Position numbers and translations under genes: made by a program
Assembly (NCBI GenBank): GCA_031277315.1
Contig: JAITMP010000011.1
Location: 1 to 58,780, forward strand
Origin: Zoogloeaceae bacterium
GTDB taxonomy: Bacteria > Pseudomonadota > Gammaproteobacteria > Burkholderiales > Rhodocyclaceae
DNA: 58,780 bases
Direction of reading: 5' to 3'
In this document: positions 12,229 to 31,519 of the stretch, in pieces
Layout of the letters: each line of letters starts with the position of its first letter
Position numbering within the stretch: position 1 is the first letter of the stretch
Notes under the pieces: model-generated
What the model saw: the letters and a program-made list of their open reading frames with translations, nothing else
Database searches by the model: none
What the model was told of the DNA's origin: nothing

Positions 12229-13941
12229 CTACATGCGCTCCGTCAGATCGACGACGCGGCTGATTTCTTCGAGGGAAGTCGCGCCTTCGATGACGCGCCG
12301 CAGTCCGTCATCGGCCAGGCTGCGGAAGCCCTTGCCCAGCGCCGCCTGCCGGATCTCGCGCTGGGTGGCGCGGCGCGCCACGAGTTCATCCAGATCGGCG
12401 TCCATGCGCAGCAGTTCCATGATGGCCTGACGGCCCTTGTAGCCTTGATGGTCGCAGCGCGGGCAGCCGGCGGCGCGGTACAGCGTCGGCGGCGGCGTCT
12501 GCGGCGCGAGGCCGAGCAGGCGCATCTCATGCGGCTCGGCGCGATGGGGCTGCTTGCAATGCGGGCAGAGCGCGCGCGCCAGACGCTGGGCGATGACGCC
12601 GATGATGTTGCCGGCCATGATGTCGGGCAGCACGCCGATGTCGAGCAGGCGCGGGATGGCGCCGATGGCCGAATTGGTGTGCAGGGTGGAGAACACCTGA
12701 TGGCCGGTCATGGCGGCGCGGAAGGCCATACCGGCGGTATCGGCGTCGCGAATCTCGCCCACCAGAATGACATCCGGGTCTTGCCGCATCATCGCCCGCA
12801 CGCCGTTGGCGAAGTCGAGCTTGGCGGCTTCGGCGACGGAAGTCTGGCGGATCAGCGGCATCGGGTATTCGACCGGATCCTCCAGCGTCATGATGTTGAT
12901 GCCCTCCGCGTTGATGTGGTTGAGCATGGAATAGAGCGTGGTGGTCTTGCCGCTGCCGGTCGGGCCGGTGACGAGGACGATGCCCTCGGGCCGCGCGATC
13001 ATCCGCTTCAATTGAGCAAGCTGGATGTCATCAAAGCCGATGCGGTCGAGCGGCACGATGCCCTTCTGGCGGTCGAGGATGCGCAGCACGATGTTCTCGC
13101 CGTGGAGCGTCGGCTGGGCGGAAACGCGAAAGTCGACCAGGCGGCCGCTAATGTTGAGCGAGACGCGCCCATCCTGCGGCGCGCGCGTTTCGGCGATGTT
13201 CATGCCGCTCATGACCTTGATGCGCACCGCCATCGCCGGCCAGTACGATTTATGCAGGGCGCGAATCTGGCGCAGCAGGCCGTCGACGCGGTAGCGGATG
13301 CGCAGAAAATTCTGCTCCGGCTCGAAGTGCGCGTCGGAGGCGTCGCGCTTGACGGCGTCGGTGAGGAGGGCGTCGACCAGACGCACCACCGGCTGGCTGT
13401 ATTCGCCGCTGGCGGCGGCGAAGCTGCGCCAGTCGACCTCGCCGGTTTCAATCTCGTGCAGGATGCCGTCGATCGACAGCTCGTGGCCGTAGTGCTGGTC
13501 GATGGCGCGGGCAATGTCGGATTCGCCCGCCAGCACCGTTTCGATGCGCATGCCGTCGCCGCCGAGCGCGCGCAGTTTGTCCAGCGCGACGATGTCGTGC
13601 ATGTCGGCGATGGCCACCGTCATGCAATGGCGGGCGTCGTCGTAATCGAGCGGCAGCAGGCAGTGGCGCTTGGCGAAATCGCGCGGCACCCGCCGCAGCG
13701 CCGCCGGGTCGATGACGGCATGGGCGAGGTCGACGCTCTTTTTGCCGAGACGCTCGCCGAGCGCGTCGCGCAAGGTCGCTTCGGTGATGAAGCCGAGGCT
13801 GACCAGCAGCTTGCCGATCGGCTGGCGGGATTTTGCCTGCTCCAGCAGCACGATGCGCAGTTGATCCTCGCTGATGACGCCTTGCGCGATCAAGGTCTGG
13901 CCGAGCGGCGGGCGCGGCGGCGCGGGCGGATTCATTGTCAT
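12229..13941 (-). CDS. mshE: MshE/GspE/PilB-family assembly ATPase
   Basis: From the ATG at 13941 (MTMNPPAPPRPPLGQTLIAQ) it is 570 residues; 13935 is an equal alternative. The upstream part of the open frame to 14103 overlaps the secretin gene and is rejected. Domains in order: an N-terminal MshEN domain (GQTLIAQGVISEDQLRIVLLEQAKSRQPIGKLLVSLGFITE), then the secretion-ATPase core with Walker A GPTGSGKTT, the Asp box, Walker B DPDVILVGEIRD and the His box TGHQVFSTLHTN. A zinc tetracysteine C-terminal region follows (CPHCKQPHR and GCPRCDHQGYKGR). This predicts a cytoplasmic extension ATPase for pilus or pseudopilus assembly. Confidence 0.93.
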   Translation of the reverse strand: MTMNPPAPPRPPLGQTLIAQGVISEDQLRIVLLEQAKSRQPIGKLLVSLGFITEATLRDALGERLGKKSVDLAHAVIDPAALRRVPRDFAKRHCLLPLDYDDARHCMTVAIADMHDIVALDKLRALGGDGMRIETVLAGESDIARAIDQHYGHELSIDGILHEIETGEVDWRSFAAASGEYSQPVVRLVDALLTDAVKRDASDAHFEPEQNFLRIRYRVDGLLRQIRALHKSYWPAMAVRIKVMSGMNIAETRAPQDGRVSLNISGRLVDFRVSAQPTLHGENIVLRILDRQKGIVPLDRIGFDDIQLAQLKRMIARPEGIVLVTGPTGSGKTTTLYSMLNHINAEGINIMTLEDPVEYPMPLIRQTSVAEAAKLDFANGVRAMMRQDPDVILVGEIRDADTAGMAFRAAMTGHQVFSTLHTNSAIGAIPRLLDIGVLPDIMAGNIIGVIAQRLARALCPHCKQPHRAEPHEMRLLGLAPQTPPPTLYRAAGCPRCDHQGYKGRQAIMELLRMDADLDELVARRATQREIRQAALGKGFRSLADDGLRRVIEGATSLEEISRVVDLTERM

Positions 13942-13990
13942 GATGCTATTGCAGACGCCCGCGCTTCCCTGCCGGTTGTTCCCGGCAAGT

Positions 13991-15841: not shown

Positions 15842-16191
15842 TGCCCCTCCCCTTGTCAAAACCCGGACGCTGTTGCCATCACACCAAGGCCTCTGAACAA
15901 GACCGGCATCGATGGCAAAGCCGTACTTTCTCTTTTTTCTCAAATAAAAGCTTATTTTTGTGATATTACGGATATTTACTTTTCTGCAAAGGAACTTTAT
16001 TGCATATAGATACCATCTGAATATACTTTTTGCTTATATCACGCCAAATGTCATTTTTGATAAATCTCAATGTCTTATTGATTTCGGGCCGACTTGGGCA
16101 TTCCGCCCGAGGAGGGCGTTGAAAGCGGTAGAATGGTTGACTGCATCGGCCCGCCAGGCGGCGGGCGCTCTCATTCAGGAAAGGAATCACG
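15842..16191. other. AT-rich divergent intergenic region between mshL and yggX
   Basis: About 350 bases separate the leftward secretin from the rightward yggX. Positions 15930-16085 are strikingly AT-rich for this window, with runs such as TTTTGTGATATTACGG and ATATACTTTTTGCTTATATC. I take this as the promoter region for both directions. A sequence TTGATAAATCTCAA at 16057-16070 is one mismatch per arm or less from an FNR-type palindrome, but support is weak. The yggX ribosome site (AGGAAAGGA) is at its right end. No gene is supported here. Confidence 0.5.
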
Positions 16192-16464
16192 ATGGGCCGT
16201 ATGGTGAAGTGCGTCAAGCTGGGCCGCGAGGCGGAGGGAATGGATTTTCCGCCGGTGCCGGGCGAATTGGGCAAGCGTATTTTCGAGAGCGTCTCCAAGG
16301 AGGCCTGGCAGCAGTGGGTCAGGTTCCAGACGATGCTGATCAATGAAAATCGTCTCAATCTGGCCGATGCCAAGGCGCGCCAGTATCTGGCCGAGCAGAT
16401 GGAAAAGCATTTCTTCGGCACCGGCGCCGATCAGGTGCAGGGCTACGTGCCGCCGAGCGCCTGA
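16192..16464 (+). CDS. yggX: YggX, Fe(II)-trafficking/oxidative damage protection protein
   Basis: This 90-residue protein matches the YggX family over its full length: [51 protein letters not shown], and the C-terminal YVPPSA. It has the single conserved Cys near the N-terminus (residue 7). YggX is a small cytosolic protein that protects iron-sulfur clusters from oxidants and influences iron handling. The start at 16192 fits the betaproteobacterial form (M-x-RMV-x-C) and follows AGGAAAGGA. It appears to be monocistronic, divergent from the pilus operon. Confidence 0.95.
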
Positions 16465-16532
16465 CGCCCTCACTGTGCGAATGCACGGAAGGCTGCGCCG
16501 CAAGCGCGGGGCTTTCCGGCAAGCTCCGGTTC

Positions 16533-17057
16533 ATGCGCTTCCTTATTCCAGAGTCGATCGAATCGCCTCGCCTCGTCCTCAGAAGTTTTCGTGACGAGGA
16601 CTGGCTGGCCATGCACGCCTATTACGGGGATCCGGAGAGCGTCGTCTACACCACGCTGCGGCCATTTTCAGAGGAGGAGAGCCAGCGCATGGTGGCGGCG
16701 ATCCTGCGGCATTGGCAGCGGCTCGGCTACGGGCCGTATGCCGTCGAGGAGAAAGCCAGCGGCGCAGTGCTTGGCACGGTTGGCCTCTGGTATCCGCGCG
16801 AATGGCCGGAGACGGAAATCAAATGGGCGCTGGCGCGTCAGCACTGGGGCAAGGGTTACGCCGCCGAGGCCGCCCGCGCCGTGCAGTCAACGGCGGGAAC
16901 GCATTTGCCGGAACTGCGCCCGATCAGCATGATCCACGCTGACAACGTCAACTCGCTGCGTCTGGCGCAAGCGGTCGGCGCGGTGTTCGAGAAAGAAATG
17001 GATTTTCGCGGCGGCGTTTATCACATGTACCGGCATCCGGCGCCGCAGCAGTCTTAA
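16533..17057 (+). CDS. GNAT-family N-acetyltransferase (RimJ/RimL type)
   Basis: This 174-residue protein begins with the RimJ/L-style ESPRLVLRSFRDEDWLAMHAYYGDPESVVYTTLRPF. The acetyl-CoA region follows: GTVGLWYPREWPETEIKWALARQHWGKGYAAEAARAV (Q/RxxGxG/A variant HWGKGYA) and the late NVNSLRLAQAVGAVFEKE. Such enzymes acetylate protein N-termini, small molecules or antibiotics; the substrate cannot be predicted. It converges with the ABC transporter gene, the two stop codons overlapping in the tetranucleotide TTAA at 17054-17057. Confidence 0.85.
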   Translation: MRFLIPESIESPRLVLRSFRDEDWLAMHAYYGDPESVVYTTLRPFSEEESQRMVAAILRHWQRLGYGPYAVEEKASGAVLGTVGLWYPREWPETEIKWALARQHWGKGYAAEAARAVQSTAGTHLPELRPISMIHADNVNSLRLAQAVGAVFEKEMDFRGGVYHMYRHPAPQQS

Positions 17058-19499: not shown

Positions 19500-19815
19500 G
19501 CCGAAGCCGGGATTGCGCCGTAACGCCGTTGCCGGGATTACATCGCAACGCCGTAGGCTGGGTTGAGCGCAGGGCGTAGGCTGGGTTGAGTGCAGCGAAA
19601 CCCAGCTTTGAGACAAACGCCGGGATTGCGTCGTAACGCCGTTGCCGGGATTGCGTCGTAACGCCGTAGGCTGGGTTGAGCGCAGCGAAACCCAGCTTCA
19701 GCATGCTGGGATTCCGTTTCACTCCATCCCAGCCTACGCCCTTCGTTCCATCCCAGCCTACGTTCCATCCCAGCCTACGTTCCATCCCAGCCTACGTTCC
19801 ATCCCGGCCTACATC
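19500..19815. repeat. REP-type repeat array downstream of the RAYT gene
   Basis: This holds several copies and partial copies of a palindromic repeat. One full 72-bp unit runs 19666-19737: it starts GTAGGCTGGG, has internal CCCAGC...GCTGGG arms and ends CCCAGCCTAC. Partial units sit at 19551-19610. Half-units of the form TTCCATCCCAGCCTACG repeat four times at about 19745-19810. The spacer GTCGTAACGCCGT recurs before several units. Translations of this stretch (for example LGWNVGWDG repeats) are artefacts of the repeat. Confidence 0.9.
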
Positions 19816-19817
19816 TC

Positions 19818-20339
19818 TTATCCCGACCTGCATCCCTCATCTCCTGCCCAATTTTCGGTATAGATCCCTCGCGCCACCCAGCGGGAAAACGTCGAATGCG
19901 GCCAATCCTTCGCCCGTGCCGTCAAGCCATGCTTCACCGGGTTGTAATGGATGTAATCGACATGCCGGGCGTAATCCTCATCGTCGCGGATCAGGTGTTC
20001 CCAATAGCGGCGTTGCCAGATGCCCCGCTCTCCTTTGCGCAAACGGCTTGCCGAACGGTATTCATCCGGCGCCAGCGCGCGCGAGAAATGCGATTTGATC
20101 AATCGCCAGCGGGTCGGATAGCCGTCATCGCCCGGCGGCAGTTGCCAGATGCAATGCAGATGATCGGGCAGAATCACGGCGGCATCCATGATTGCCGGAT
20201 GCGCTTTGAGCGTGTCCCGGAACGCCTCGCGCAATTGCGCGACCCTATCCACCAACAAAGTATTTTCGCCACGCTCGGCCAGATTGACCGTAAAGAAATA
20301 CAAGCCGCCGGCAGTTCGGTTGCGAAGATAGGTTCTCAT
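19818..20339 (-). mobile_element. REP-associated tyrosine transposase (RAYT) gene
   Basis: From the ATG at 20339 this encodes 173 residues: MRTYLRNRTAGGLYFFTVNLAERG. The Y1-transposase core follows: an HUH-like motif in ILPDHLHCIWQLP (about residue 60) and the catalytic Tyr region YIHYNPVKHGL (about 131-141) followed by WPHSTFSRWV. The longer open frame to 20717 only reads through repeat DNA. RAYTs are single-copy IS200/IS605-related proteins believed to bind and move REP palindromes. Here the gene is flanked on both sides by REP arrays, the classic REPtron layout. The frame is intact. Confidence 0.92.
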
Positions 20340-20426
20340 GACCGGGATGAAAAAGAAATGCAGGAAATGTAGGCCGGGATGGGGTGAAACGCAATCCCGG
20401 CTTTCGCAATCAAAATAACATCGTAA

Positions 20427-20947
20427 CGCCGTAGGCCGGGGTTGAGCACAGCGAAACCCGGCTTCGGCATGCTGGGATTCCGTCGTAACGCCGTAGGCTG
20501 GGGTTGAGCGCAGCGAAACCCGGCATGCTGAAGCTGGGATTCCGTCGTAACGCCGTAGGCTGGGGTTGAGCGTAGCGAAACCCAGCATGCTGAAGCTGGG
20601 ATTCCGTTTCACTCCATCCCAGCCTACGCCCCGCGTTCTCCATCCCAACCTGCGTTCCTGAAGCCGGGATTCCGTCGTAACGCCGTAGGCTGGGTTGAGC
20701 GCAGCGAAACCCGGCATGCCGAAGCTGGGATTCCACTTCGTTCCATCCCAGCCTACGCCCCACGTTCCATCCCAACCTGCGTTCCTGCAGCCGGGATTCC
20801 GTCGTAACGCCGTAGGCTGGGTTGAGCGTAGCGAAACCCAGCTTCAGCATGCTGGGATTCCGTTTCACTCCATCCCAGCCTACGCCCCACGTTCCATCCC
20901 AGCCTACGCCCTTCGTTCCATCCCGCCCTGCGTTCTATCCCGGCTTG
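20427..20947. repeat. REP-type repeat array upstream of the RAYT gene
   Basis: This is a dense array of the same palindrome as at 19666. Head-to-tail units begin with GTAGGC(C/T)GGG at 20431, 20493 and 20555 (about 62-bp period). Complete units lie at 20555-20627, 20685-20756 and 20812-20883. Extra TTCCATCCC...CTACGCCC half-units fill the spaces and continue to about 20947. Spacers such as TTCCGTCGTAACGCC are themselves repeated, so this is not a CRISPR. No gene is supported between the RAYT start and the terminator at 20963. Confidence 0.92.
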
Positions 20948-20962
20948 CGTTTGGTGAGTGAA

Positions 20963-20998
20963 TAAAAAACCCGGTCGGCGGGTTGCGCCGACCGGGTT
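20963..20998 (-). terminator. intrinsic terminator of the mtrA1-mtrB1 module
   Basis: A 12-bp perfect stem (arms 20968-20979 and 20987-20998, AACCCGGTCGGC, 7-base loop) is followed, in the leftward direction, by TTTTTTATT. It sits 22 bp after the stop of the outer-membrane porin gene at 21020. Confidence 0.88.
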
Positions 20999-21019: not shown

Positions 21020-23200
21020 TTACTGGAACGAGTAGCGATAGGTCAGATATACCGCGTGGACGCGGTAGTTCGGCTCTTGCAGGTAGGCCGGCAGCGCAAG
21101 GATCGGCGGAGCGGCGTCATACATGTCGTAGTAATAGTCGTTGGAGCGGAGCTTCTGGTAAAGATACCCCGCGCCAATGCTGGAGGTTTTGTCGACATGA
21201 TAAGTGGCGTTGAGACGGAACTGGGTGAGCCGGCTTTTGATGTCCGGCAACGAACCATTATTGGCGTTCGCGGGATCATAAGGAAGTTTCGTCTTGTACC
21301 CGGTCTTGTTGAAGCTGTAGCTGAAATCCTCGGAGAACACGAGCTTGCCGTCGAGCAGCTTCTGTTTGCCGAACAGGCCGAAGGAGTTGTCCTTGTCGTC
21401 CAGTGCGTTGTGCCAGATCTGGTTCAAATTCGCGTTGCTGGCGCTCGACCGCATGTCGCGGTCGCGCTTCTGGTAGCTGGCCCAGGCGCCATACGACATC
21501 TCTTCCGAGGGGTTGAAGTTGGCATACAGGTCGACGCCGGTCGTTCTTCCTTTCTGCACGCCGACGACATCGGCATCGTAATAGTCATCCCTGGAATGGC
21601 GGGCGTTGAGGCCGAGTTCGATCTCGGGCGTGACTTGCCAGTTCACGCCGGTCTTGTATACGTCCTGACGGCGAGAGGACTGAAAGAAGGCAACCCAGCC
21701 GGGCGCGTCAAGGTGATTGGCGCCGGTCCGGTGCATCGGGTTCCAGAAAAGCGGATCGACATCCGAATCCCGATCGGCCCAAGTGTAGCTGGCGTTGAAA
21801 TTCACCGTATCGAGAATGGCCAGTTTGTAACCGGCGCTGAGCTTGTGCTCGTCGCTCTCCGGCACCTGCGCGCAGCCGCCTCCCCTGTACGATTGACCTG
21901 TCTGGCGCTTGTAGAGGGAATCGTTGCACCAGCGTTCGATCTTTTCGTAGTCGTAACTGACATCCGCCCGCTGGCGCTTGTCGATGCGGTAAGTCAGCTT
22001 GGCATCGAACTGATTGCGCTTGTGGCTCATCGGGGCATTGACAGTCGCATCGGCACCCGCTCCCCACAAGAAGGCATCGGTCTTGTTGTCGCGCTCGTTG
22101 TACTTGTAGCCCGTGCTCAGATTCAGCGCCGGCGTGAACTGATGGGTCAGACGGAGGTCGGCCTGGGTGGTGCGGACATCGCCATCAAGGTCTTTCCGGG
22201 GCAAGACGAGCGCGCCGCTATAGCTGCCGCTGAAGTTCTGCGTCTGCGTGTTCCAGCCATAGGAAAAGCCGCCGGTCAGCTTGGTTCTGGGGCTGAAGCT
22301 GTAACCGCCGGTGAAGTTGACCTGATGGAAGTCGTTGTCCGGCATCTGGCTGGCGACGACAGTGGGGGCTGCGGCATCGCTCGCAGCCGCCCACAAGGCG
22401 CGGTTGTCATTCTTGAACAGCGAGGCGCGGTACTCCAGACTGGCATAGGCGTTTTCGCCGACGTAGTTGAGCGCGATGTTGTACATGTCGGTCTGGTATT
22501 CCGTCGGGTTCATCAACAATGCCCGACCGGGGCTGCTGCTGGCATTGAAGAGCTTGGCGCCCGACTGGTCGATGCGCTTGAAGCCGGCCTTGACGCTCCA
22601 TTCTTCGTTGAAGGCGTAGCTGCCGTTGAGGCCGTAGTTCTTGCGCTCGTTATAGACATCGACGTCACGAAAAGTCGCCAGTTGCGCGGCAGTCGGGGCG
22701 GCGTTGTTCGCGGGCGCGCCGTAGCCCGGCGGCAGCCGGAAGTGGTTGTCGCCCGGCGAACCCCGATAGGGCGTCTGGTAGCCGGTGGTGGTGTAGTGGC
22801 GCATCTGGTCGAAGCTGATGCCGATGTTCCACTTGCCCTGTTCCGCGACGCTGGCGTCGAGGCTGCGCGAGGTGGTGCCCAGATTACTGCCGTTGACTTG
22901 CCAGCGGAAAGCGCCGCCGCTGCGGCAGTTGCCGTCGCCGCCGCTCAAGCCGAAATTGCCGACGAGGTAGCCGCCGGAATCATTGAGGCCGTTGTATTCG
23001 CCGAATTTGGGCGCGTCATCGGAAACATGGAGTGCGCCGATTTCCAGATAGCTGGTCGGGCAGACGAGCGCCTTGACATCCTCGTCCATCTTCTCATCGG
23101 CGGCAGCAGCCAGGCCCGGCGCGGCGAACATGGCGAGCAGGGCCAGTCGCACGGCGCGCGTCAGAGAGGCTTGGGTGAAATCACAAGATTGCGTTTTCAT
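21020..23200 (-). CDS. mtrB: MtrB/PioB-family outer-membrane beta-barrel (module 1)
   Basis: This is 726 residues from the ATG at 23200, which follows AGAGGAGAA at good distance. It has a signal peptide (LALLAMFAAPGLAAAA) and then CPTSYLEIGALHVSDDAPKFGEYNGLNDSGGYLVGNF, the typical N-terminus of decahaem-associated MtrB/PioB porins. Alternating amphipathic strands run to the end (HAVYLTYRYSFQ). In Shewanella MtrB and phototroph PioB this barrel wraps a decahaem cytochrome and conducts electrons across the outer membrane. Only one cysteine appears in the mature N-terminus, not the CxxC of Shewanella MtrB. It directly follows the decahaem gene (23223-24230). The direction of electron flow is not determined by sequence. 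Confidence 0.88.
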   Translation of the reverse strand: MKTQSCDFTQASLTRAVRLALLAMFAAPGLAAAADEKMDEDVKALVCPTSYLEIGALHVSDDAPKFGEYNGLNDSGGYLVGNFGLSGGDGNCRSGGAFRWQVNGSNLGTTSRSLDASVAEQGKWNIGISFDQMRHYTTTGYQTPYRGSPGDNHFRLPPGYGAPANNAAPTAAQLATFRDVDVYNERKNYGLNGSYAFNEEWSVKAGFKRIDQSGAKLFNASSSPGRALLMNPTEYQTDMYNIALNYVGENAYASLEYRASLFKNDNRALWAAASDAAAPTVVASQMPDNDFHQVNFTGGYSFSPRTKLTGGFSYGWNTQTQNFSGSYSGALVLPRKDLDGDVRTTQADLRLTHQFTPALNLSTGYKYNERDNKTDAFLWGAGADATVNAPMSHKRNQFDAKLTYRIDKRQRADVSYDYEKIERWCNDSLYKRQTGQSYRGGGCAQVPESDEHKLSAGYKLAILDTVNFNASYTWADRDSDVDPLFWNPMHRTGANHLDAPGWVAFFQSSRRQDVYKTGVNWQVTPEIELGLNARHSRDDYYDADVVGVQKGRTTGVDLYANFNPSEEMSYGAWASYQKRDRDMRSSASNANLNQIWHNALDDKDNSFGLFGKQKLLDGKLVFSEDFSYSFNKTGYKTKLPYDPANANNGSLPDIKSRLTQFRLNATYHVDKTSSIGAGYLYQKLRSNDYYYDMYDAAPPILALPAYLQEPNYRVHAVYLTYRYSFQ

Positions 23201-23222
23201 GATTTGAGTTCTCCTCTCTGGG

Positions 23223-24230
23223 TTATTGCCACAACCGGCGGCCGTCCGGAAGAACCGGGGAATTGGAGCCGTGCACCTGCGCATGGCAGTTCAGGCAGCC
23301 ACGCCCCGCTACACGGTTGGCAGTATTGGCGGTGGCGCTAGCCAAGCCACCAGGGCCATACGGCGTCTTGCTGTCATGCGGGCCATCATGGCATTCCTGA
23401 CACAGGAAGGGCGGCCGCGATTTGAGCAGCGGCGTGATGTTGGAGCCGTGCGGCGTGTGGCAGTTGGTGCAGTCTTCGTTGACCGGCTGGTGTTCCCACA
23501 GGAAGGGGCCGCGCTTCTCGGCATGGCACTCGAAACAGGTTTCGTTGACGGTGTTTCTGGCGAGCAGCTTCGGCCCGGTTGAGCCGTGCGGGTTGTGGCA
23601 TTCCGAGCAGGTGAGCTTGCCGGCGTCGATCGGGTGGGTGGAGATTTTCTTGATCTCGGCGCGCTTCTCCTGATGGCAGGTGAAGCAGACAGCGGGTTGT
23701 TTGATTTTCGCCATCACCGGGTCTTTTTGCGTATGGACGGTATGGCAACTGGCGCAAGCCACATCGTTGGTCTGATGCTGGCTGCCCGACCAGCGCATGC
23801 GCAAACCGGATTTGTGGCAGCTCAGGCAGATTTCGGACTGCTCTTGCGGATCGCTCGGCTCATAGCCGGCAGTGGTGCTTTTGGAGCCGAAAATCCGGTC
23901 GGGGCGCGGGCGGCCCGTGCCTTCGAGGTTACCGCCCAGGTGCTTTTCGCTCGCGCCGTGGCAGTCCCGGCAGCCCGGCGTTCTGGCATCGCCAATGGCG
24001 CCATGCTTGGTCTGGTAAATGGCGAGAATCGGCCTCGTTTCCGATTCGTCGTGGCATTTGGTGCAGACGGCGTCTTTCTGTTTGCGCTGCTCAGTCGCCG
24101 ACTGACCCGCTTCCGTTTTCATGGAATCCGGTCGCCGGGCTGTCGGGTCGGCATGGGAAACGGATGCCAGCCCCAAGGCCAGCATCCCGCCGCAAAACAT
24201 CGCAATTCGCCACCATATTTTATTTTTCAT
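23223..24230 (-). CDS. mtrA: decahaem c-type cytochrome, MtrA/MtoA family (module 1)
   Basis: This is 335 residues from the ATG at 24230, preceded by GGAG. The signal peptide is MKNKIWWRIAMFCGGMLALG...SHA. Ten CxxCH motifs are present in order: CTKCH, CRDCH, CLSCH, CASCH, CFTCH, CSECH, CFECH, CTNCH, CQECH, CLNCH, arranged as two similar pentahaem halves as in MtrA. Repeated patterns such as FxCHxEKRG.F..EHQPVNEDCTNCHxPHGS are diagnostic. The protein should sit in the periplasm, partly inside the MtrB barrel encoded next, and pass electrons between periplasmic carriers and the cell surface. An intrinsic terminator lies between it and the preceding monohaem cytochrome gene. Confidence 0.94.
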   Translation of the reverse strand: MKNKIWWRIAMFCGGMLALGLASVSHADPTARRPDSMKTEAGQSATEQRKQKDAVCTKCHDESETRPILAIYQTKHGAIGDARTPGCRDCHGASEKHLGGNLEGTGRPRPDRIFGSKSTTAGYEPSDPQEQSEICLSCHKSGLRMRWSGSQHQTNDVACASCHTVHTQKDPVMAKIKQPAVCFTCHQEKRAEIKKISTHPIDAGKLTCSECHNPHGSTGPKLLARNTVNETCFECHAEKRGPFLWEHQPVNEDCTNCHTPHGSNITPLLKSRPPFLCQECHDGPHDSKTPYGPGGLASATANTANRVAGRGCLNCHAQVHGSNSPVLPDGRRLWQ

Positions 24231-24295
24231 AAACCGGTTCTCCAGAATCAAAAACGCGCACGCCCGTTACGCTTGCGCGACCGTTGCCGCAATAT

Positions 24296-24321
24296 AAAAA
24301 AATGCGCCCGTCACAGGGCGC
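24296..24321 (-). terminator. intrinsic terminator inside module 1
   Basis: Read leftward, the hairpin GCGCCC-TGTGAC-GGGCGC (24304-24321) is followed by A then seven T (24296-24302 on the plus strand as A-run). It lies between the monohaem cytochrome at 24335 and mtrA at 24230. The stem is short but GC-only, so partial termination is likely, leaving more transcript of the small cytochromes than of mtrA-mtrB. Confidence 0.65.
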
Positions 24322-24334
24322 GTCACAAGGCAAG

Positions 24335-24691
24335 TCACAGGGCAAGAATCCAGTCCGCCAGGTTCTTGATCTGCGCGGCGTCGTTGGGCGGATTCGTCTT
24401 GATGATCTTGTGGTCTTCCTGATGCCCATCGGGGAATTTTGCTTTTTCCCCGGTGGTGAGGTGCTCAACCAAACGCTTCTGCCCATTGGATTTGTCGTGG
24501 TATTTTTTCGCCACTTCGCTCCAGGCCGGCCCCTCCTTGGTCTTCATGACGGAATGGCATTTGAAGCAGTTGTTTGCCCGCGCAAGATGCATGGCGGCTT
24601 CCTCGTCGATTGCCGCCGCCGGACCTGATGCCATCAACATGGCCGCCGCCAAGGCAGCCGAGGAAAAGGAAATGATGTGAAATTTTTTCAT
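24335..24691 (-). CDS. monohaem c-type cytochrome (module 1, second)
   Basis: This is 118 residues from the ATG at 24691, with GGAGAG ten bases upstream. A signal peptide ends near GPAAAID. One haem site, CFKCH, lies at residues 42-46, followed by a class I-like fold (KEGPAWSEVAKKYHDK...NLADWILAL). After the haem site the only Met is residue 49, too close to act as the distal ligand. At the usual distal position there is DGHQEDHKII, with His94 conserved in both paralogues (24932 and 31175). It is predicted to be a small periplasmic electron shuttle for the MtrA/MtrB conduit, comparable in role to MtoD. Confidence 0.85.
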   Translation of the reverse strand: MKKFHIISFSSAALAAAMLMASGPAAAIDEEAAMHLARANNCFKCHSVMKTKEGPAWSEVAKKYHDKSNGQKRLVEHLTTGEKAKFPDGHQEDHKIIKTNPPNDAAQIKNLADWILAL

Positions 24692-24931
24692 GATGCGCTC
24701 ACTCTCCTTCATCAATGCTTGATTGATCTCCGGGACTGAGCGCGCAAAATCCGGCTGGCGAGCGCGAACGCTTGCCGCTGTCAGGCATGACACCCGCAGC
24801 CATCGAGCCAGTGATTTCACGATACTCCTCCCTTGTGCAGGCGACGGGGACGTCGCTTGGTAAAACTAAAATTTGAACAGGCCGCCGGCCCTCTCCCGGA
24901 GCCGTGCGGCCAGTTCAGACTGCCATAACGT

Positions 24932-25273
24932 TCAATGCGACAGAATCCAGCGGATCAGATTGCGAATCTCCCCTTGATCGTCAGTCTTCGGAGAAATATG
25001 TTTCTCTTCCTTGTCGTCGTACTTGACGATCGGATTGGTCGTCAGGTGCGTCCACAGTTTTTCCTCGGCGTCCGCCTTGCCTTTGTATTTGGCGGAGGTT
25101 TTTTCAAAAGACGGGCCGTTCTTATCCTTGACGGGGTCGTGGCATTTTTTGCAGCCACTCTTGCCGAAGAGGGATTTGGCCGCGTCGGCATCAACTTCTT
25201 GCGCCGCAACACCGCCCGCGCAAGTCAGCAGAAACAAGGTGATTCCGGCTATCGCCGCTTTGTTTTTCAACAC
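24932..25273 (-). CDS. monohaem c-type cytochrome (module 1, first)
   Basis: This 113-residue protein starts with GTG at 25273; a strong AAGGAGGAGG lies seven bases upstream. The signal peptide is AIAGITLFLLTCAGGVAAQ. The haem site CKKCH is at residues 41-45, with DKNGPSFEKTSAKYKGK and IRNLIRWILSH as in the paralogues. Apart from the initiator the protein contains no methionine at all, so His/Met haem coordination is impossible; His92 (KEEKHISPKT) is the conserved candidate distal ligand. It is first in module 1, with an FNR-like palindrome about 190 bases upstream. Confidence 0.87.
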   Translation of the reverse strand: MLKNKAAIAGITLFLLTCAGGVAAQEVDADAAKSLFGKSGCKKCHDPVKDKNGPSFEKTSAKYKGKADAEEKLWTHLTTNPIVKYDDKEEKHISPKTDDQGEIRNLIRWILSH

Positions 25274-25464
25274 AGGAAACCTCCTCCTTAAAACAGCCAG
25301 TTATGATGTGGCGCAATTATCGAGAAACCCGAAACGGGAATGCATGACGTGAGATTGAGCCGTTTTTTTACTTCGTGGCGGCGCAATAACTACTCAATAG
25401 TCATCCAAACAGTCACCCAATGCCACGGTCGGCGAAGGGTAGTGTTTTTACGATATCCGGCACA

Positions 25465-25478
25465 TTGATAATAGTCAA
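25465..25478. promoter_or_regulatory. FNR/Anr-type palindrome upstream of module 1
   Basis: TTGATAATAGTCAA (TTGAT-N4-GTCAA) differs at one position from the FNR consensus TTGAT-N4-ATCAA. It is the same arm pair as the site at 31739, also upstream of a monohaem cytochrome that starts an electron-transfer module. It lies 192 bases before the GTG at 25273, in an AT-rich patch (25440-25555). The site is inferred from sequence only. Confidence 0.5.
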
Positions 25479-25597
25479 GAAAAACCGTGGCTGACGTGGC
25501 GCGTTTTGATTCAGATAAAAATAGTTTAGATAGCAATAATATTGCCGTTTTGCGCGGAATGGAACGGGGTCGCGGAATGACGACGGCCTGCTCAGGG

Positions 25598-25897
25598 GCG
25601 TAGGCTGGGATGGAGCGAAGGGGCGTAGGCTGGGATGGAACGAAGGGGCGTAGGCTGGGATGGAACGGAGGGACGTAGGCTGGGATGGAGCGCAGCGCAA
25701 TCCCAGCATGCCGAAGCTGGGTTTCGCTACGCTCAACCCAGCCTACTCGCTGGCTCTGCGCGGAGCGAAGCACAGTCGCAGGGCGTAGGCTGGGATGGAG
25801 TGAAACGGAATCCCAGCATGCCGAAGCTGGGTTTCGCTGCGCTCAACCCAGCCTACTGCCACTACCTCATCGTCATTCCCGCTTTCGCGGGAATGAC
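25598..25897. repeat. repeat cluster between module 1 and module 2
   Basis: Two complete 72-bp palindromic units lie at 25675-25746 and 25785-25856, in the orientation GTAGGCTGGGATGGAG...CTCAACCCAGCCTAC. They are preceded by three tandem half-units (GTAGGCTGGGATGGA, 25604-25674). A separate 26-bp palindrome of the GTCATTCCCGC type is at 25872-25897. The rest of 25274-25597 holds the promoter region of module 1 and no gene. Confidence 0.9.
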
Positions 25898-25900
25898 GGC

Positions 25901-25938
25901 AAAAAAAAACGGCCCCGGAGATTGCGCTCCGGGGCCGT
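25901..25938 (-). terminator. intrinsic terminator of module 2
   Basis: Leftward, the 12-bp stem ACGGCCCCGGAG / CTCCGGGGCCGT (25909-25938, 6-base loop) is followed by a run of T (nine A at 25901-25909 on the plus strand). It lies 16 bases after the stop of the CbcL-like gene and separates module 2 from module 1. Confidence 0.93.
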
Positions 25939-25953
25939 TGTTTCCGGGCCTGC

Positions 25954-27930
25954 TTAAATGTGGGTGAAGAAGCCGATCGCCACCAGCACCAGCAGGATGA
26001 GGCCGATGGTAATCAGCGCCAGACCGAGGATGACGGAGCCGATGTGCATCTGCTTCGACGGCGCGTCGACCAGGTATTTCTCCAGTTCGCCGTTATCCAC
26101 CAGCCGCTGGTACTGGGCCGGGTGTTCGCGGCGGAACTCTTCCAGCGACTGGGTGCCGGTGAACATCACCACATCGGGCGGCGGCAGCTTGTCGGGGCGG
26201 AAGTGGTTGTTGAAGAAATGCACGGTGAACAGGAACACCGCGGCAAGGAAGGCTTCTTCGCCGTGCACCAGCGTGGCGACGTTGAACACCCAGCCGGGGA
26301 AGATGCTCGCCGTGACGTGCGGGAAGGCCAGCATCATGCCGCTCCAGCCGATGATGTTGATACCCCAGAACACCGCCCAGTAGTCGAACTTCTCGAAGTA
26401 AGTCCAGCGGTCGAACTGCGGCTTTTCACCCTTGCCGAAGAACCACTTGAACATGCCCCAGCAATCGGCGAGGTCCTTCCAGTTGGGGATCAGCGAATCC
26501 GGGCCGAACCAGCGGAAGTTCTTGTCGCGCAGCAGCTTCCACATCACGTAGATGAAGTGGATGGCGAAAATGATGATGAAGATCGCGGCGGCGACGCGGT
26601 GGATGAGGCCGAGATTGCGCGGCCCGCCGACGGCGGCGGCAACCTTGGGCGCCCATTCGGTGCCGGAGAACAGCGCCGAGATTCCCGTCAGAACCAAAGT
26701 CATCGTGACCAGGGCAAGGATCAGGTGGCCGATGCGCCAGCCCCAGCCGAAGCGGAGGAAGTGCTTCTCCGGCAGACCCAGACCTTCGGTCTTGATGTGC
26801 GGAATCTCTTTTTGAACCTTGCGCTCCTGCCATTCGCGGTAGTACCAGAGGATGCAATGCACCCAGAAGAAGGCGAAGACGCCGATCAGGAGCGCCACCA
26901 TGAACTTGGTGGCAATCCACATCTGCGGATACTTCTTGAAATCATGCGAGTTGGCATGCGGGCCGAAAGTGGCGAAACCGGCGGTGGCGGGAACCATGCC
27001 CGGCTTCTTGTCGGTGTGGCAGTGCTGACACGTCTTCAGGCGGTTTTTCTCGCTCACCTTCGAGTCGGGATCATCCGCGCCCTTGATGCCGTGGCTGCCG
27101 TGGCAATCCGAGCACTTGGCGGTGTAGGCGAAGCCGAGTTTGTTCACCTGACCGTGATAAGTGTCGCGGTAGCTCTTCAGTTCATCCTTGTGGCAATCGC
27201 CGCAGAACTCCACGTTCTTGAGCTTGAAAGGCTCTGAAGAAGCGCCCCGAATCTCGTGGGTGGTGTGGCAGTCGGTGCAGATGGCGCCCTTGGGATCATT
27301 CTTGCCCATGACAAGTTGGCCGTGGGCGGAGGTTTCATAATCCTCAAGCTGCTCCTCGTGGCAGTTTGTGCCGCAGGTCTTGGGAATGGTCAGCCGCCAT
27401 TGCTCGCGCTCCGGCGTGCCTTTCTTCGGCACCGCGAAGTTGTGGGTGGCGTGGCATTCGGAGCAAAACGCCTTGGGCCGGTTCGGGTTATCGGTGTCCG
27501 GGCGGGCGTGGAAAGATTCCTTGTACGCCGCGATATTGTCGGCCACCACGCCGAGGCGCTCCTTTCCTTCCGCCTTGCCGGAAGCCTTCGCCTCGTTCCA
27601 CAGCTTCTCGTGGCAGCTTACGCAGTTGGGCGGAACGGTGTCGATGACTCTGGCATGGTTTTCCCTGGCATCGACGATGTTGGTGTGGCACGCCACGCAT
27701 TCCATCTTGGCGTGCACGCCGTGCTCGTATTGCTTGGGGTCGACCGGGAGCAAGGGGCGCTTCTCGCCATCGGCCCCGATCATTTCGATTTTCTGCTTGT
27801 CGGTTTGGTGGCACGTCAGGCAAGCGGCATTATCCAGTTCGGCGGCAGTCGCCGCTGTACCGGTCAGCAGTCCGGCGCTCAGGGCAATCAGCCCGGCCAG
27901 CCAGCGGCATTGTTTGGCAAAGGTTCGCAT
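25954..27930 (-). CDS. CbcL-like multihaem cytochrome c / cytochrome b fusion
   Basis: This 658-residue protein has a signal peptide (1-30) and then a periplasmic part with eight CxxCH sites (residues 37, 78, 103, 156, 218, 243, 273, 301) plus a CxxxCH site, CGTNCH, at 186-191: nine likely haems c. After about residue 335 comes a membrane domain of roughly six helices: 337-364, 396-420, 441-466, 516-538, 553-577 and 628-656. Its histidines resemble those of formate-dehydrogenase gamma/b561-type diheme cytochromes (RIGH401, IHRV444, IHFIYVMW458, VHGEE556). This plan is that of Geobacter CbcL, an inner-membrane quinol oxidase for metal reduction. Here it ends the operon with the module 2 MtrA/MtrB and replaces CymA. 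Direction of flow is inferred. Confidence 0.87.
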   Translation of the reverse strand: MRTFAKQCRWLAGLIALSAGLLTGTAATAAELDNAACLTCHQTDKQKIEMIGADGEKRPLLPVDPKQYEHGVHAKMECVACHTNIVDARENHARVIDTVPPNCVSCHEKLWNEAKASGKAEGKERLGVVADNIAAYKESFHARPDTDNPNRPKAFCSECHATHNFAVPKKGTPEREQWRLTIPKTCGTNCHEEQLEDYETSAHGQLVMGKNDPKGAICTDCHTTHEIRGASSEPFKLKNVEFCGDCHKDELKSYRDTYHGQVNKLGFAYTAKCSDCHGSHGIKGADDPDSKVSEKNRLKTCQHCHTDKKPGMVPATAGFATFGPHANSHDFKKYPQMWIATKFMVALLIGVFAFFWVHCILWYYREWQERKVQKEIPHIKTEGLGLPEKHFLRFGWGWRIGHLILALVTMTLVLTGISALFSGTEWAPKVAAAVGGPRNLGLIHRVAAAIFIIIFAIHFIYVMWKLLRDKNFRWFGPDSLIPNWKDLADCWGMFKWFFGKGEKPQFDRWTYFEKFDYWAVFWGINIIGWSGMMLAFPHVTASIFPGWVFNVATLVHGEEAFLAAVFLFTVHFFNNHFRPDKLPPPDVVMFTGTQSLEEFRREHPAQYQRLVDNGELEKYLVDAPSKQMHIGSVILGLALITIGLILLVLVAIGFFTHI

Positions 27931-27984
27931 TTACTGTTTTCTCTCTCTTTGTCAGACCGGCGCGAAAACGCCCCGGCCAAATGA

Positions 27985-28014
27985 CAACGGGACCCGATAC
28001 ACGCGGTCCCGTTG
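27985..28014 (-). terminator. intercistronic hairpin between mtrB2 and the CbcL-like gene
   Basis: The inverted repeat CAACGGGACC / GGTCCCGTTG (arms 27985-27994 and 28005-28014, 10-base loop) lies between the porin stop at 28061 and the next start at 27930. No T-run follows in the leftward direction, so it is more likely a messenger-stabilising or weak attenuating hairpin than a full terminator. Confidence 0.5.
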
Positions 28015-28060
28015 CTGGTCTTTCATCAAGCGATCAACTCGTTCAGGCAAGTGGCAAACA

Positions 28061-30121
28061 CTACTGGAACTTGTAAATGTAGCGGAAGCCGACGAAGGTG
28101 GCGGCCTCGCTGGGGTCGGCGATCACATAAGTACCGTTACTTATATACAAAGGCGAACCGTTGCTGTTCTTCCAAGTCCAGTCGTTGGTCTTCCATCTGT
28201 CGTAGATCAGGTCGAAACGCAGATCGGAAGTCTTGTTGAGCGCATACAAGGCAAACAGCGAAACGCGCAGATGCTTGTCGGTGATGTCGGACGGTGCAAC
28301 GCGGGTCGCGGCGATGCCGTTGGGAACGGGAAGGCCAGTGGCGTCGGACCAAGCCGCGATGTCGTACTCGCTGACACTGCGCGTCCATTCCAGATTGGCG
28401 CCAGTGTGCAGGGCTGACGTGGCTTCCCACTTGACGCCCAGGCCGAGCGAATCGGCGTTGTCCTCAATGTCGTAACGGCGGGTTTGGGTCAAGGTAGTCC
28501 CCATGCGGCCAGTCTGCTTCGCCTTGGTTTGGTCGTAGCTGTACCAAGCATTAAAGCTCAGCTTGTCGTTGACCGTCCAAGTGGCGTCGAGGCTATACAA
28601 GCGGGTTTTGCCTTCATCCAGACCAAGAGGGTTTTGGCCGCTGTACTTATCCTTGCCGTCTTCGAACACGAATTGCAGCGAGAGCGCTTCGAGCGGCGTC
28701 CAGTCCAGCGAAAGTCGAGCTTTGTCGCGCTTGCGATCAGCCACGTTAAGGGGGTTAAGTTGGTTTCTGACGGGATTGGGATCTGTCGGTCCGTATGATG
28801 ACCCATCGCGATCAGCATGCACCCAAGACACGCTGCCGTTGAGAGTGTCCGTCAGCGAGCGACGCAATTCCAAGCGGCCAGTGGTTTCGTTCAGCTTGTG
28901 AACGAACGGTACTCTGGCCAGCCTGTCCGTGCCATTGATATTTTCCGGCAACTCGCGCTTCTGGCGTTTTTCCTCCACGCTACCAACCAGACTATAGACA
29001 TCGGCAAAGCGATAGACGCCCTCCACCTTGCCAGAGAGCGTCCGCAAGGACTGGCTGAAATGGGGATGGGTGTCGGGGGCAGCACCGGCAAAAGAAACAT
29101 TGTTCGGTGTCCGGTCATCCTTGTCGTGATAACGCAGGTTAGCGTTCAGAGAGAAGTCTTTGGTTATGCGCGAGGTCAGGCCCAACTGCACCAGCTTGGT
29201 GACGACTTCGCCATCCAGACTATTGACGCCGCCAACGCCGGGAAACGCAAAGTTTTCATTTTGTGTGGCGTGGGCATACTCCACCTTGAAGGTGCCGCGC
29301 GTGCTCTTGGTGAAGTTGTAACCGCCATTCAGGAACAACTGATGCGCCTGATTATCGAGCGGTAGAGACATAATGTTAGCCGGCCCTTGGAACGCGGTGC
29401 CAGCGCCAGCGAGGCGAATGTTGTTTTCGTACCAACTGGCGTTGTAGCCGCCGCGAAGCTGGAACTTCTCCGTGCTCCAAGACAGCGCCGCTTCTATCTG
29501 GCGTGTCGTGCTGTCGATCGGCTCGGGCGCAAAATTGGTATGGCCATTGTCAGCAAAGTTACGAGCGCCAGTCTTGTCTTCGTTCCTGTAGGTCAGGTTA
29601 AAATCCAGACCGGATTTGCCGTTCTGATACAGGTTCTTGTAGAAATCAAAATTGAGCTGTTCGCGTCTTATGCTCAAATCCTTGGAATAGATAGGTACGG
29701 CGCCAACGGTCGTCATGCTCGACGAGCCGATGCCCTGCACGTTGGTGCGGTACTCGTTGGGATCGTCGCGCCGGATGCGGTTGTATTCCATGCTGATGCC
29801 GATGTCGCCCTGTTTGAGCACTTCGCCCTTGATCGAGCGGTTGTCCAGACCGAGGTCGCGGGCGTCGAGCTTGTACCAGGTGCCAGTGTCGTTGTCCCGC
29901 TTGACGATATCGGCGTCGAGCAGGATGTAACTCTTGCCCTCCCGCATGCCGTCGTACATGCCCGTCTGCCGGCGGTCGTTCGACCAGTTGCCGAAGCCGA
30001 TGGAAATCGCGCTATCGGGTTCGATAAGTTCGGTTACTTCGTCGTCAGCCAGCGCGGGGCCAAATACTGCGGTCAGGGCAGCGGCGACGGCGCTGAGGCG
30101 AAACTGTTTTTGCGTAATCAT
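28061..30121 (-). CDS. mtrB: MtrB/PioB-family outer-membrane beta-barrel (module 2)
   Basis: This 686-residue protein has a signal peptide (AVAAALTAVFGPALADDE). The barrel begins SAISIGFGNWSNDRRQTGMYDGMREGKSYILLDADIVKRDNDTGTWYKLDARDLGLDNRSIKGEV, the form found in PioB/MtoB-type proteins, and ends in AATFVGFRYIYKFQ. Asp/Tyr-rich alternating strands fill the length. The mature protein has no cysteine. It follows the decahaem gene by 12 bases, with GGGGGAAA upstream of its ATG. It should form the outer-membrane sheath for the decahaem protein. It is clearly diverged from the module 1 barrel, so the two conduits are not a recent duplication. Confidence 0.88.
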   Translation of the reverse strand: MITQKQFRLSAVAAALTAVFGPALADDEVTELIEPDSAISIGFGNWSNDRRQTGMYDGMREGKSYILLDADIVKRDNDTGTWYKLDARDLGLDNRSIKGEVLKQGDIGISMEYNRIRRDDPNEYRTNVQGIGSSSMTTVGAVPIYSKDLSIRREQLNFDFYKNLYQNGKSGLDFNLTYRNEDKTGARNFADNGHTNFAPEPIDSTTRQIEAALSWSTEKFQLRGGYNASWYENNIRLAGAGTAFQGPANIMSLPLDNQAHQLFLNGGYNFTKSTRGTFKVEYAHATQNENFAFPGVGGVNSLDGEVVTKLVQLGLTSRITKDFSLNANLRYHDKDDRTPNNVSFAGAAPDTHPHFSQSLRTLSGKVEGVYRFADVYSLVGSVEEKRQKRELPENINGTDRLARVPFVHKLNETTGRLELRRSLTDTLNGSVSWVHADRDGSSYGPTDPNPVRNQLNPLNVADRKRDKARLSLDWTPLEALSLQFVFEDGKDKYSGQNPLGLDEGKTRLYSLDATWTVNDKLSFNAWYSYDQTKAKQTGRMGTTLTQTRRYDIEDNADSLGLGVKWEATSALHTGANLEWTRSVSEYDIAAWSDATGLPVPNGIAATRVAPSDITDKHLRVSLFALYALNKTSDLRFDLIYDRWKTNDWTWKNSNGSPLYISNGTYVIADPSEAATFVGFRYIYKFQ

Positions 30122-30133
30122 GATTTCCCCCTG

Positions 30134-31111
30134 TTAGCGACGGTAGTGTTGGCCGCCATTGGGCAAGTTGCTACCGTGAATGGCTGTATGGCAGACGAGG
30201 CAGCCACGACCGCTGATCGACCCTTGGCCGTTATAGTTGCCACCGATCTGCACGCCAGCGGTATTTTGCGCATGAGCTTGACCACTACTGCTATGACATT
30301 GTTGGCACAGGATAGGTACGCGCTGCGCCAGCAGGTTCGGCGTCGTGGTGCCGTGCGGCTTGTGGCAGATGCCGCAGTCTTCCGCCACCGGCTGGTGCTC
30401 ATGCACGAACGGCCCGCGCTTTTCCATGTGGCAGGTGTAGCAGGTGTCGTTGGTGCTCGACTTGGTGAGCGCCTTCGGGTTGTCGCTATGCACGTCGTGG
30501 CAGGAGGAGCAGCCCATCTTGCCTTCCGGCACCGGGTGGTGCGTCGGGCGGATCATCTGGGCGCGCTGTTCCTTGTGGCAGGAGTAGCAGATATCGGTCT
30601 GGGCGAACTTGTCGCGCACCTTGTCGCGCCGGGCATGAACGTTGTGGCAGGAGACGCAGGCGACATCGCGGCCGGCGTGGGTGCTGGATTGCCAGTTGAT
30701 GCGCTTGCCGCCCTGGTGGCAGGTGAGGCAACGTTCGTTGCGCAACTCGGCTGGCGTGGGCGAATTCTTGGTAAACAGGATGCTCGGCTTGGGCGGCTTG
30801 CCGCTGCCCTTGTAGTTCATGTGGTCGTCGCTGTCGCCGTGGCAGTCGGTGCAGGTCGGCGTGCGGCCATCAGCCTGGGTGCCGTGCTTGGTCTTGCCGA
30901 TGGAAAGCACGGAAGGATGCAGTTCCAGCATGCTCGGCGTCGGGTCGTCGGCTTCGTCGTGGCAGCCGGTGCACTTGGCGTCGCCCTTGAGGATGAGGTC
31001 TTTCTTCTCCTGCGGCGCGTCCTTGGCGTCATCGGCGGCGAGCGTTGCGCCGGCAAACGACACGCCGACGCAACAGGCCATCAAGGCCAGTAGGTTTTTT
31101 ACTGCTTTCAT
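30134..31111 (-). CDS. mtrA: decahaem c-type cytochrome, MtrA/MtoA family (module 2)
   Basis: This 325-residue protein has a signal peptide (LLALMACCVGVSFAGATLAAD). Ten CxxCH motifs: CTGCH, CTDCH, CLTCH, CVSCH, CYSCH, CSSCH, CYTCH, CGICH, CQQCH, CLVCH. The MtrA-like repeats (YTCHMEKRGPFVHEHQPVAEDCGICHKPHGT) and spacing match the module 1 decahaem protein, with which it aligns end to end. It is predicted to reside in the periplasm and within the barrel encoded by the next gene, transferring electrons across the outer membrane. It is placed between the monohaem cytochrome and the barrel, the same order as in module 1. Confidence 0.94.
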   Translation of the reverse strand: MKAVKNLLALMACCVGVSFAGATLAADDAKDAPQEKKDLILKGDAKCTGCHDEADDPTPSMLELHPSVLSIGKTKHGTQADGRTPTCTDCHGDSDDHMNYKGSGKPPKPSILFTKNSPTPAELRNERCLTCHQGGKRINWQSSTHAGRDVACVSCHNVHARRDKVRDKFAQTDICYSCHKEQRAQMIRPTHHPVPEGKMGCSSCHDVHSDNPKALTKSSTNDTCYTCHMEKRGPFVHEHQPVAEDCGICHKPHGTTTPNLLAQRVPILCQQCHSSSGQAHAQNTAGVQIGGNYNGQGSISGRGCLVCHTAIHGSNLPNGGQHYRR

Positions 31112-31136
31112 ATATCCCCCTGAATCACTTCGTTAT

Positions 31137-31161
31137 CGCGCCGGCGCAGGTGGCCGGCGCG
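31137..31161 (-). terminator. intercistronic hairpin after the first monohaem cytochrome of module 2
   Basis: The 9-bp perfect stem CGCGCCGGC / GCCGGCGCG (31137-31145 and 31153-31161, 7-base loop) lies between the cytochrome stop at 31175 and the mtrA start at 31111. There is no T-run. It may protect or attenuate the transcript so that the small cytochrome is made in excess, paralleling the terminator at 24296 in module 1. Confidence 0.5.
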
Positions 31162-31174
31162 GTATTGCCTGTCT

Positions 31175-31519
31175 TTACATCGTGAGAATCCACTGGAGCA
31201 GGTTGTCGGTTTCAGCCGGCGTGGCTTCGATGATCTTGTGCTCTTCCTCGCTGCCGTCCTCGAGCTTGACCTTGTGGACGGTGGTGACGTTCTTGAGCAT
31301 CTTTTCCATGCCTTCGGCTTCCTTGCCTTTGTACTTGGCGGCAATCTTCTTGTAGGACGGGCCTTTCTTGGATTTGTCGAGGGCATGACACTTGAAGCAG
31401 TCATTCTTCTTGGCCAAGGCTCTGGCGGCATCCGCGTCGGGCGCCGCGCTGACGGTGGCGGACAGGGAAAGCAGGGCAACTGCAGAGAACAGGGTTAAAT
31501 GTGTACGGACGAGTTTCAT
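31175..31519 (-). CDS. monohaem c-type cytochrome (module 2, first gene)
   Basis: This 114-residue protein has a signal peptide (LFSAVALLSLSATVSAAP) and one haem site, CFKCH at 41-45. The pattern KKGPSYKKIAAKYKGKEAEGMEKMLKN...LLQWILTM is that of small class I cytochromes. The distal-ligand position carries GSEEEHKIIEATPAE, with His94 aligned to His94 and His92 of the two module 1 paralogues; the Mets at 71 and 74 lie in a helix and are not conserved. It is probably a periplasmic shuttle between the CbcL-like quinol-linked protein and MtrA. It opens the module 2 operon, with an FNR-like palindrome 220 bases upstream. Confidence 0.87.
   Translation of the reverse strand: MKLVRTHLTLFSAVALLSLSATVSAAPDADAARALAKKNDCFKCHALDKSKKGPSYKKIAAKYKGKEAEGMEKMLKNVTTVHKVKLEDGSEEEHKIIEATPAETDNLLQWILTM

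Follow-up and report, generated by a model that had tools for sequence, protein, structure and literature searches.

Two adjacent, putative Mto-type extracellular electron transfer operons of different MtrA/MtrB lineage in a Zoogloeaceae bacterium

The window analysed here is the whole of contig C11 (58,780 nt; JAITMP010000011.1) of a Zoogloeaceae bacterium whose genome assembly (GCA_031277315.1; 50 contigs, 2,408,472 bases) has a completeness of 98.4%. Between positions 21020 and 31519 it carries eight minus-strand genes, in the transcription order monohaem cytochrome, decahaem MtrA, MtrB porin, CbcL-like cytochrome, monohaem, monohaem, second decahaem MtrA and second MtrB porin. They look like two putative operons that are transcribed separately, since a terminator-like hairpin closes each gene set: operon 1 (31519-25954) has the order monohaem-MtrA-MtrB-CbcL and operon 2 (25273-21020) the order monohaem-monohaem-MtrA-MtrB.

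31175..31519, minus strand: monoA, MtoD-like monohaem c-type cytochrome, first gene of operon 1; 1 CXXCH motif; PF00034; top PDB match 4XXL, 102.6 bits
30134..31111, minus strand: MtrA1/MtoA, periplasmic decahaem cytochrome; 10 CXXCH motifs; TIGR03508, 262.1 bits; PDB 6R2Q chain A, E=6.6e-61
28061..30121, minus strand: MtrB1/MtoB, outer-membrane beta-barrel porin; PF11854, 440.4 bits; TIGR03509, 303.7 bits; PDB 6R2Q chain B, E=7.2e-23
25954..27930, minus strand: CbcL/MtoC, proposed quinone module; c-type domain with nine haems joined to a b-type cytochrome membrane domain
24932..25273, minus strand: monoE, MtoD-like monohaem c-type cytochrome, first gene of operon 2; 1 CXXCH motif; 4XXL, 76.6 bits
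24335..24691, minus strand: monoF, MtoD-like monohaem c-type cytochrome; 1 CXXCH motif; 4XXL, 114.6 bits
23223..24230, minus strand: MtrA2, second-lineage periplasmic decahaem cytochrome; 10 CXXCH motifs; TIGR03508, 292.9 bits; PDB 6R2Q chain A, E=1.4e-71
21020..23200, minus strand: MtrB2, second-lineage outer-membrane beta-barrel porin; PF11854, 395.1 bits; TIGR03509, 429.4 bits; PDB 6R2Q chain B, E=3.6e-30

Both MtrAs and both porins score far past chance against their families, for which the cut-offs are 192.2 bits (TIGR03508) and 240.05 bits (porin). The fold of CbcL was obtained by structure prediction. Three starts were reassigned, those of MtrA2 (24251 to 24230) and MtrB2 (23284 to 23200) by reading and that of monoF (24820 to 24691) from the position of its signal peptide. 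An earlier note on this DNA had described the same eight genes; haem counts and family matches confirm that they are real and were read correctly.

Operon 1 belongs to a familiar type. It has a decahaem MtoA beside MtoB, a CbcL/MtoC adjoining mtoAB and a monohaem MtoD, and these stand in the order mtoD-A-B-C. In an 82-row MtrA tree, MtrA1 falls together with mtoDABC loci in a clade of 12 rows (support 100/100), with CbcL in the examined context of six rows and not of five. Judged by gene content, order and tree placement, operon 1 is a standard mtoDABC, a known iron-metabolism operon. The earlier note had also regarded a betaproteobacterial operon uniting CbcL with MtrA and MtrB as novel, a claim that finds no support: an mtoABCD with a CbcL homologue, MtoC, is reported from D. 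aromatica RCB and G. capsiferriformans ES-2 in the relevant portions of two papers (PMC5566968, PMC6295460), and exactly the order monohaem-MtrA-MtrB-CbcL recurs in 8 of 80 titled loci. Loci with the mtoDABC order include those of Dechloromonas hankyongensis, Pseudothauera nasutitermitis, Azoarcus sp. Aa7 and two Aromatoleum species. The pairing of CbcL with MtrAB is ordinary in this group; what is new about the locus as a whole is how known modules are combined in it.

Where does the second conduit come from? MtrA2 lies in a clade of 14 rows (support 99/91), separate from that of MtrA1, and MtrB1 and MtrB2 separate likewise in a 54-row MtrB tree made by a quick search; both trees were computed without DmsE, PioA, D. 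aromatica or ES-2 sequences and without MtoA of Sideroxydans lithotrophicus ES-1. Forcing the two MtrAs into one clade lowers the log-likelihood by 103.3 units (approximately unbiased test, p-AU 0.0131). On these trees the two conduits are of different MtrA/MtrB lineages. Two homologous pairs adjoining on one strand might be the outcome of a recent tandem duplication of a single mtrAB pair, yet the MtrAs are only 44-45% identical and, with the porins separating too, such an origin is scarcely credible. Local duplication was rejected on the p-AU value and the separate, supported clades.

The relatives of operon 2 differ in their quinone-facing neighbours. Among the remaining 13 rows of the MtrA2 clade, the DNA examined shows a neighbouring NapC/NirT-family tetrahaem gene (Pfam PF03264) for five, CbcL for two and neither for six. 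The order monohaem-monohaem-MtrA-MtrB recurs in five other viewed loci: in three (L147, L151 and L185) a NapC/NirT-family gene follows, in L145 the contig starts 263 nt past MtrB, and in L096, a Rhodoferax locus of the other lineage, a 10-haem gene and CbcL follow. L151 groups with MtrA2 in a smaller tree (5-row clade, 95/90) yet falls outside the 14-row clade in the 82-row tree, so gene order and lineage are imperfectly matched. No CymA/ImoA-type tetrahaem gene lies beside operon 2: no other window frame of at least 70 codons carries two or more CXXCH motifs.

The features that bound the operons are hairpins and repetitive extragenic palindrome (REP)-like repeats.

25908..25939, minus strand: intrinsic-terminator-like hairpin after operon 1; 13 pairs, 10 of them G-C, and a T tract; -29.2 kcal/mol for the 51-nt stretch, z -4.57
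20968..20998, minus strand: intrinsic-terminator-like hairpin after operon 2; 13 pairs, 10 of them G-C, and a T tract; z -4.89
25569..25860, no strand assigned: REP-like repeats between the operons, inverted with respect to repeats at 19500-20960
19818..20717, minus strand: frame of a REP-associated tyrosine transposase amid the REP-like repeats downstream of operon 2; NF047646, 192.6 bits (cut-off 80), residues 130-275

The first hairpin stands 14 nt past the CbcL stop and is followed by seven Ts, and the second stands 21 nt past MtrB2; for neither 51-nt stretch was any of 200 shuffles equally stable. A scan found 19 terminator-like sites against a shuffle mean of 13.8, and most such sites are therefore noise, from which the two at the operon ends are distinguished by stem length and position. 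Repeats make up about 290 nt of the 680-nt gap between the operons. Their 83-nt arm at 25777-25859 is 96% complementary to one at 19663-19745, and operon 2 has REP-like repeats on either side, oppositely oriented. With at most one mismatch, the core 16-mer is present 44 times in the genome and a reversed control not at all; because such repeats are dispersed, their presence around operon 2 is by itself no proof that it moved. No Pfam family matched a shorter version of the transposase frame (19818-20399) at E<=0.001. The cluster genes have a lower GC content than the 21 other genes of the window (0.581 versus 0.651; Mann-Whitney p 1.9e-6) and a lower GC3 (0.757 versus 0.829; p 0.0012). This composition, together with a patchy distribution in the genus, where 3 of 16 genomes (this one among them) match an MtrA of any kind, makes acquisition by horizontal transfer likely. 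The locus would have been assembled from two lineages, probably by horizontal transfer and possibly with repeat-mediated recombination. Some 5 kb downstream of operon 2, at about 4300-15943, the window also holds a cluster for type IV pilus/MSHA-like assembly, with a secretin, an MshE-type ATPase and their neighbours.

The rest of the genome constrains what the conduits might connect to. Three MtrB/PioB porins and three MtrAs exceed their cut-offs, two of the MtrAs being on C11 and one on contig C2. There the third MtrA/MtrB pair (L144, 678-5613) is followed by two dihaem cytochromes, and its MtrA and the one at L196, in a second genome of the genus, group together (100/99); the latter adjoins two two-haem frames. 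NapA (1540 bits) and NapC are present. The only NapC/NirT gene over cut-off lies on contig C47 (its 305.7 falls just short of the napC_nirT subfamily cut-off of 310.6), beside frames that we read as NapF-like and ccm-like. A search for the RuBisCO large subunit gave no match in the genome at E<=0.001 and matched 5 of 14 control genomes. No MtrC/OmcA exceeds its cut-off in the genome; the sole TIGR03507 match (22.7 against 209.3 bits) lies inside MtrA1.

Could these be DmsE/DmsF-type conduits serving an extracellular molybdenum reductase of DMSO or iodate? The NCBI name of the decahaem family is 'DmsE family', and the genome has a DmsA-like gene, albeit one that reaches 617.9 against the TIGR02166 cut-off of 777.7. 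Four genes exceed the PF00384 cut-off: NapA, this DmsA-like gene, a third that falls below every listed cut-off, and a fourth read as NuoG (N-terminus only). None of them is on C11 or C2, where the MtrAs are; the DmsA-like gene is on contig C4 (L181), which has no MtrA. Adjacent DmsA/DmsB molybdopterin reductase subunits, as in DmsEFAB, were not found, and no molybdo-reductase was noticed among the listed frames of the window, some of which were family-searched. Gene context thus goes against both decahaem proteins being DmsE partners, an outcome that the earlier note, thinking of a phylogeny, had named as one that would refute its proposal, and we consider this explanation very improbable.

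The three monohaem cytochromes would provide the periplasmic step. PDB 4XXL is MtoD of Sideroxydans lithotrophicus, which aligns with monoA, monoE and monoF over most of their length; for monoE, a designed c555 trimer ranks first among PDB rows by E-value, its score being the sum over three copies. Past the haem motif, monoE lacks methionine, monoF has a single one three residues further along, and in monoA methionines stand at 71, 74 and 114. In the alignment all three have a histidine in the loop that matches EEEHK of MtoD, shifted in monoE. MtoD has bis-His ligation and a potential of +155 mV according to the portion of its description that covers the haem (PMC4412085), and these residues make bis-His ligation likely in monoA, monoE and monoF also.

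Taken together, the genes suggest two adjacent Mto-type extracellular electron transfer operons whose link to the quinone pool is shared or served by NapC and whose likeliest use is auxiliary electron uptake, an interpretation to which we give an even chance. What the analysis establishes is the gene set, its terminator-like hairpins and lineages, the predicted CbcL fold and what the genome contains; beyond this we infer a topology, a shared use of CbcL, a bis-His ligation, a type of respiration, a direction and a substrate that would combine as follows. In each conduit a decahaem MtoA/MtrA would sit within the MtoB/MtrB beta-barrel and pass electrons across the outer membrane. MtoD-like monohaems, probably bis-His, would shuttle electrons over the periplasm, and CbcL/MtoC would use its formate-dehydrogenase-like cytochrome b domain to trade them with the quinone pool. 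Because a NapC/CymA-type tetrahaem partner gene is missing here, operon 2 would rely on the CbcL of operon 1 or on NapC elsewhere. This amounts to a plausible complete route from the quinone pool to the cell exterior through two diverged conduits, as first proposed for this DNA, in a betaproteobacterium that is probably one of the Rhodocyclaceae; trading electrons between the quinone pool and donors or acceptors outside the cell is the most likely function of the locus. The likeliest role would be the uptake of electrons from Fe(II), reduced minerals or humics by a heterotrophic cell respiring nitrate or oxygen, with reverse flow possible. Uptake is suggested by the operon type and by the lack of an MtrC-type surface cytochrome over cut-off, but the lack of a RuBisCO match takes away its customary autotrophic purpose and, with NapA and NapC present, points to an auxiliary role.

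The same genes could instead support outward respiration, in which CbcL oxidises quinol and both conduits feed Fe(III), humics or an anode. The CbcL of Geobacter is a proposed quinol oxidase and has a homologue in MtrH, from the Fe(III)-reducing Rhodoferax ferrireducens, as the pertinent part of one study has it (PMC6295460); moreover, electrons from Fe(II) could not supply a Calvin cycle where no RuBisCO is matched. However, the genome lacks an MtrC/OmcA-type surface cytochrome over cut-off, the nearest published operon type, mtoDABC, is attributed to Fe(II) oxidisers in the sections that treat it, and the monohaems resemble the MtoD of an Fe(II) oxidiser. We regard outward respiration as somewhat unlikely.

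Alternatively, the conduits may be functionally separate, operon 1 working through CbcL and operon 2 through the NapC on C47 or directly with periplasmic acceptors such as NapA. Such a division is consistent with the terminator-like hairpins between the operons, with the NapC/NirT-family gene adjacent in five of the other MtrA2-clade rows, and with a genome that has a single NapC/NirT gene over cut-off along with NapA. NapC, however, is on another contig beside NapF-like and ccm-like frames, which fits a role in nap, and CbcL lies near three other tandem loci (L084, L155 and L183). Separate function is a tentative possibility that we would not expect to prevail.

Several points weigh against the interpretation of two uptake operons with a shared or NapC-served quinone link. 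The periplasmic step is its weakest link, since all three monohaems are MtoD-like, none is established as PmcA, and in the ES-1 work in vitro, so far as the relevant part of that report goes, bis-His MtoD showed no interaction with either MtoA or the inner-membrane protein ImoA, whereas His-Met PmcA did (PMC13390432); in a Shewanella assay from the same source, both MtoD and PmcA could carry electrons from CymA to MtrA. The link of the MtrA2 lineage to CymA is partial, with five tetrahaem neighbours in 13 rows and CbcL in two. MtoA/MtrA and MtoC/CbcL may run both ways, as stated in parts of two papers (PMC10734462, PMC6295460), so gene content cannot fix the direction of the electrons. Promoter-like sites upstream of the operons are at shuffle level (4 found, 3.2 expected), and the amino-acid make-up of cytochromes may account for part of the low GC. 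Finally, with 98.4% completeness and 50 contigs, an apparently absent gene could sit in a gap.

Is a pair of unlike conduits a peculiarity of this genome? Counts of distribution take in the genome itself. A CbcL match is present in 36 of 150 genomes of the family, and an MtrA2-like match in 38 of 150 from the family, 41 of 399 from the order and 3 of 16 from the genus. By printed coordinates, two or more MtrAs lie within about 10 kb in at least 2 of the 38 family genomes (this one and G006) and at least 3 of the 41 in the order (this one, G262 and G474), both being lower bounds because limited candidates were scored per genome. Including the window we have five tandem-conduit loci, among which gene order and strand vary. 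L084 (Duganella aquatilis) has two mutually divergent pairs with CbcL nearby, the one such case among the 80 titled loci; L155 (G006, 3368-16866) has three consecutive MtrA-MtrB pairs with CbcL on the other strand; L183 (G262) has two pairs, with CbcL 4.7 kb from the nearer one and an opposite-strand 9-haem frame in between; and in L184 (G474), with two pairs, the 13 kb examined up to the contig end contain no CbcL. L183 also contains a short two-haem frame (14331-14678) that resembles the start of an MtrA and is possibly a broken third conduit. Elsewhere, the CbcL loci L068 and L080 have an extra 10-haem gene adjoining MtrA-MtrB, possibly MtrC-like.

In the window, L084, L155 and L183, one porin falls in the MtrB1 set (24 rows of the 54-row tree, starred there) and another on the MtrB2 side, with an unstarred support of 92 for the latter placement in L084; for L184, mixed porin types are suggested by bit scores alone. 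A bolder proposal is that dual-conduit islands of mixed lineage are a design that recurs under selection, in which a CbcL-linked MtoAB and an MtoAB of a partly NapC/CymA-linked lineage have repeatedly been joined, so that one inner-membrane quinone module could serve two wires tuned to different substrates or potentials. The MtrAs speak against a clean two-type rule, as both of those in L184 and one in L183 form a three-row clade outside the two main lineages (100/94), and so does L155, where two of the three pairs are of the same type. We claim no significance for the mixed-type tandem loci and consider a selected design doubtful.

Why would the locus matter? If both conduits do feed one quinone module, it offers a natural test of why bacteria retain several outer-membrane wires, perhaps with a different donor, acceptor or potential for each. 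An organism with Mto operons and no RuBisCO match also bears on whether Mto signifies lithoautotrophy or merely auxiliary electron exchange.

Among known systems, the ES-1 Mto pathway resembles operon 2 in joining MtoD-like monohaems to MtoAB, as portions of two accounts describe it (PMC4412085, PMC13390432), and several relatives of operon 2 carry a NapC/NirT-family gene as well. Unlike that pathway, the window has no CymA/ImoA gene and no identified His-Met PmcA, and operon 2 has two MtoD-like monohaems. Shewanella MtrCAB shares homologous MtrA and MtrB (PDB 6R2Q) and differs in its MtrC, for which this genome has no MtrC/OmcA over cut-off. The CbcL of Geobacter sulfurreducens, where its description covers the architecture, likewise has nine c-type haem motifs and, after them, a cytochrome-b-like membrane domain, and the literature puts the identity of CbcL with MtoC/MtrH at about 35% in the part that compares them; its outer-membrane partners are Pcc complexes, whereas those here are of the MtrAB type. 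Closest are the mtoABCD operons of D. aromatica RCB and ES-2, compared by description and not by sequence: operon 1 agrees with them in all four of its gene types (MtoD, MtoA, MtoB and MtoC), and to these the window adds a second, different mtoAB operon.

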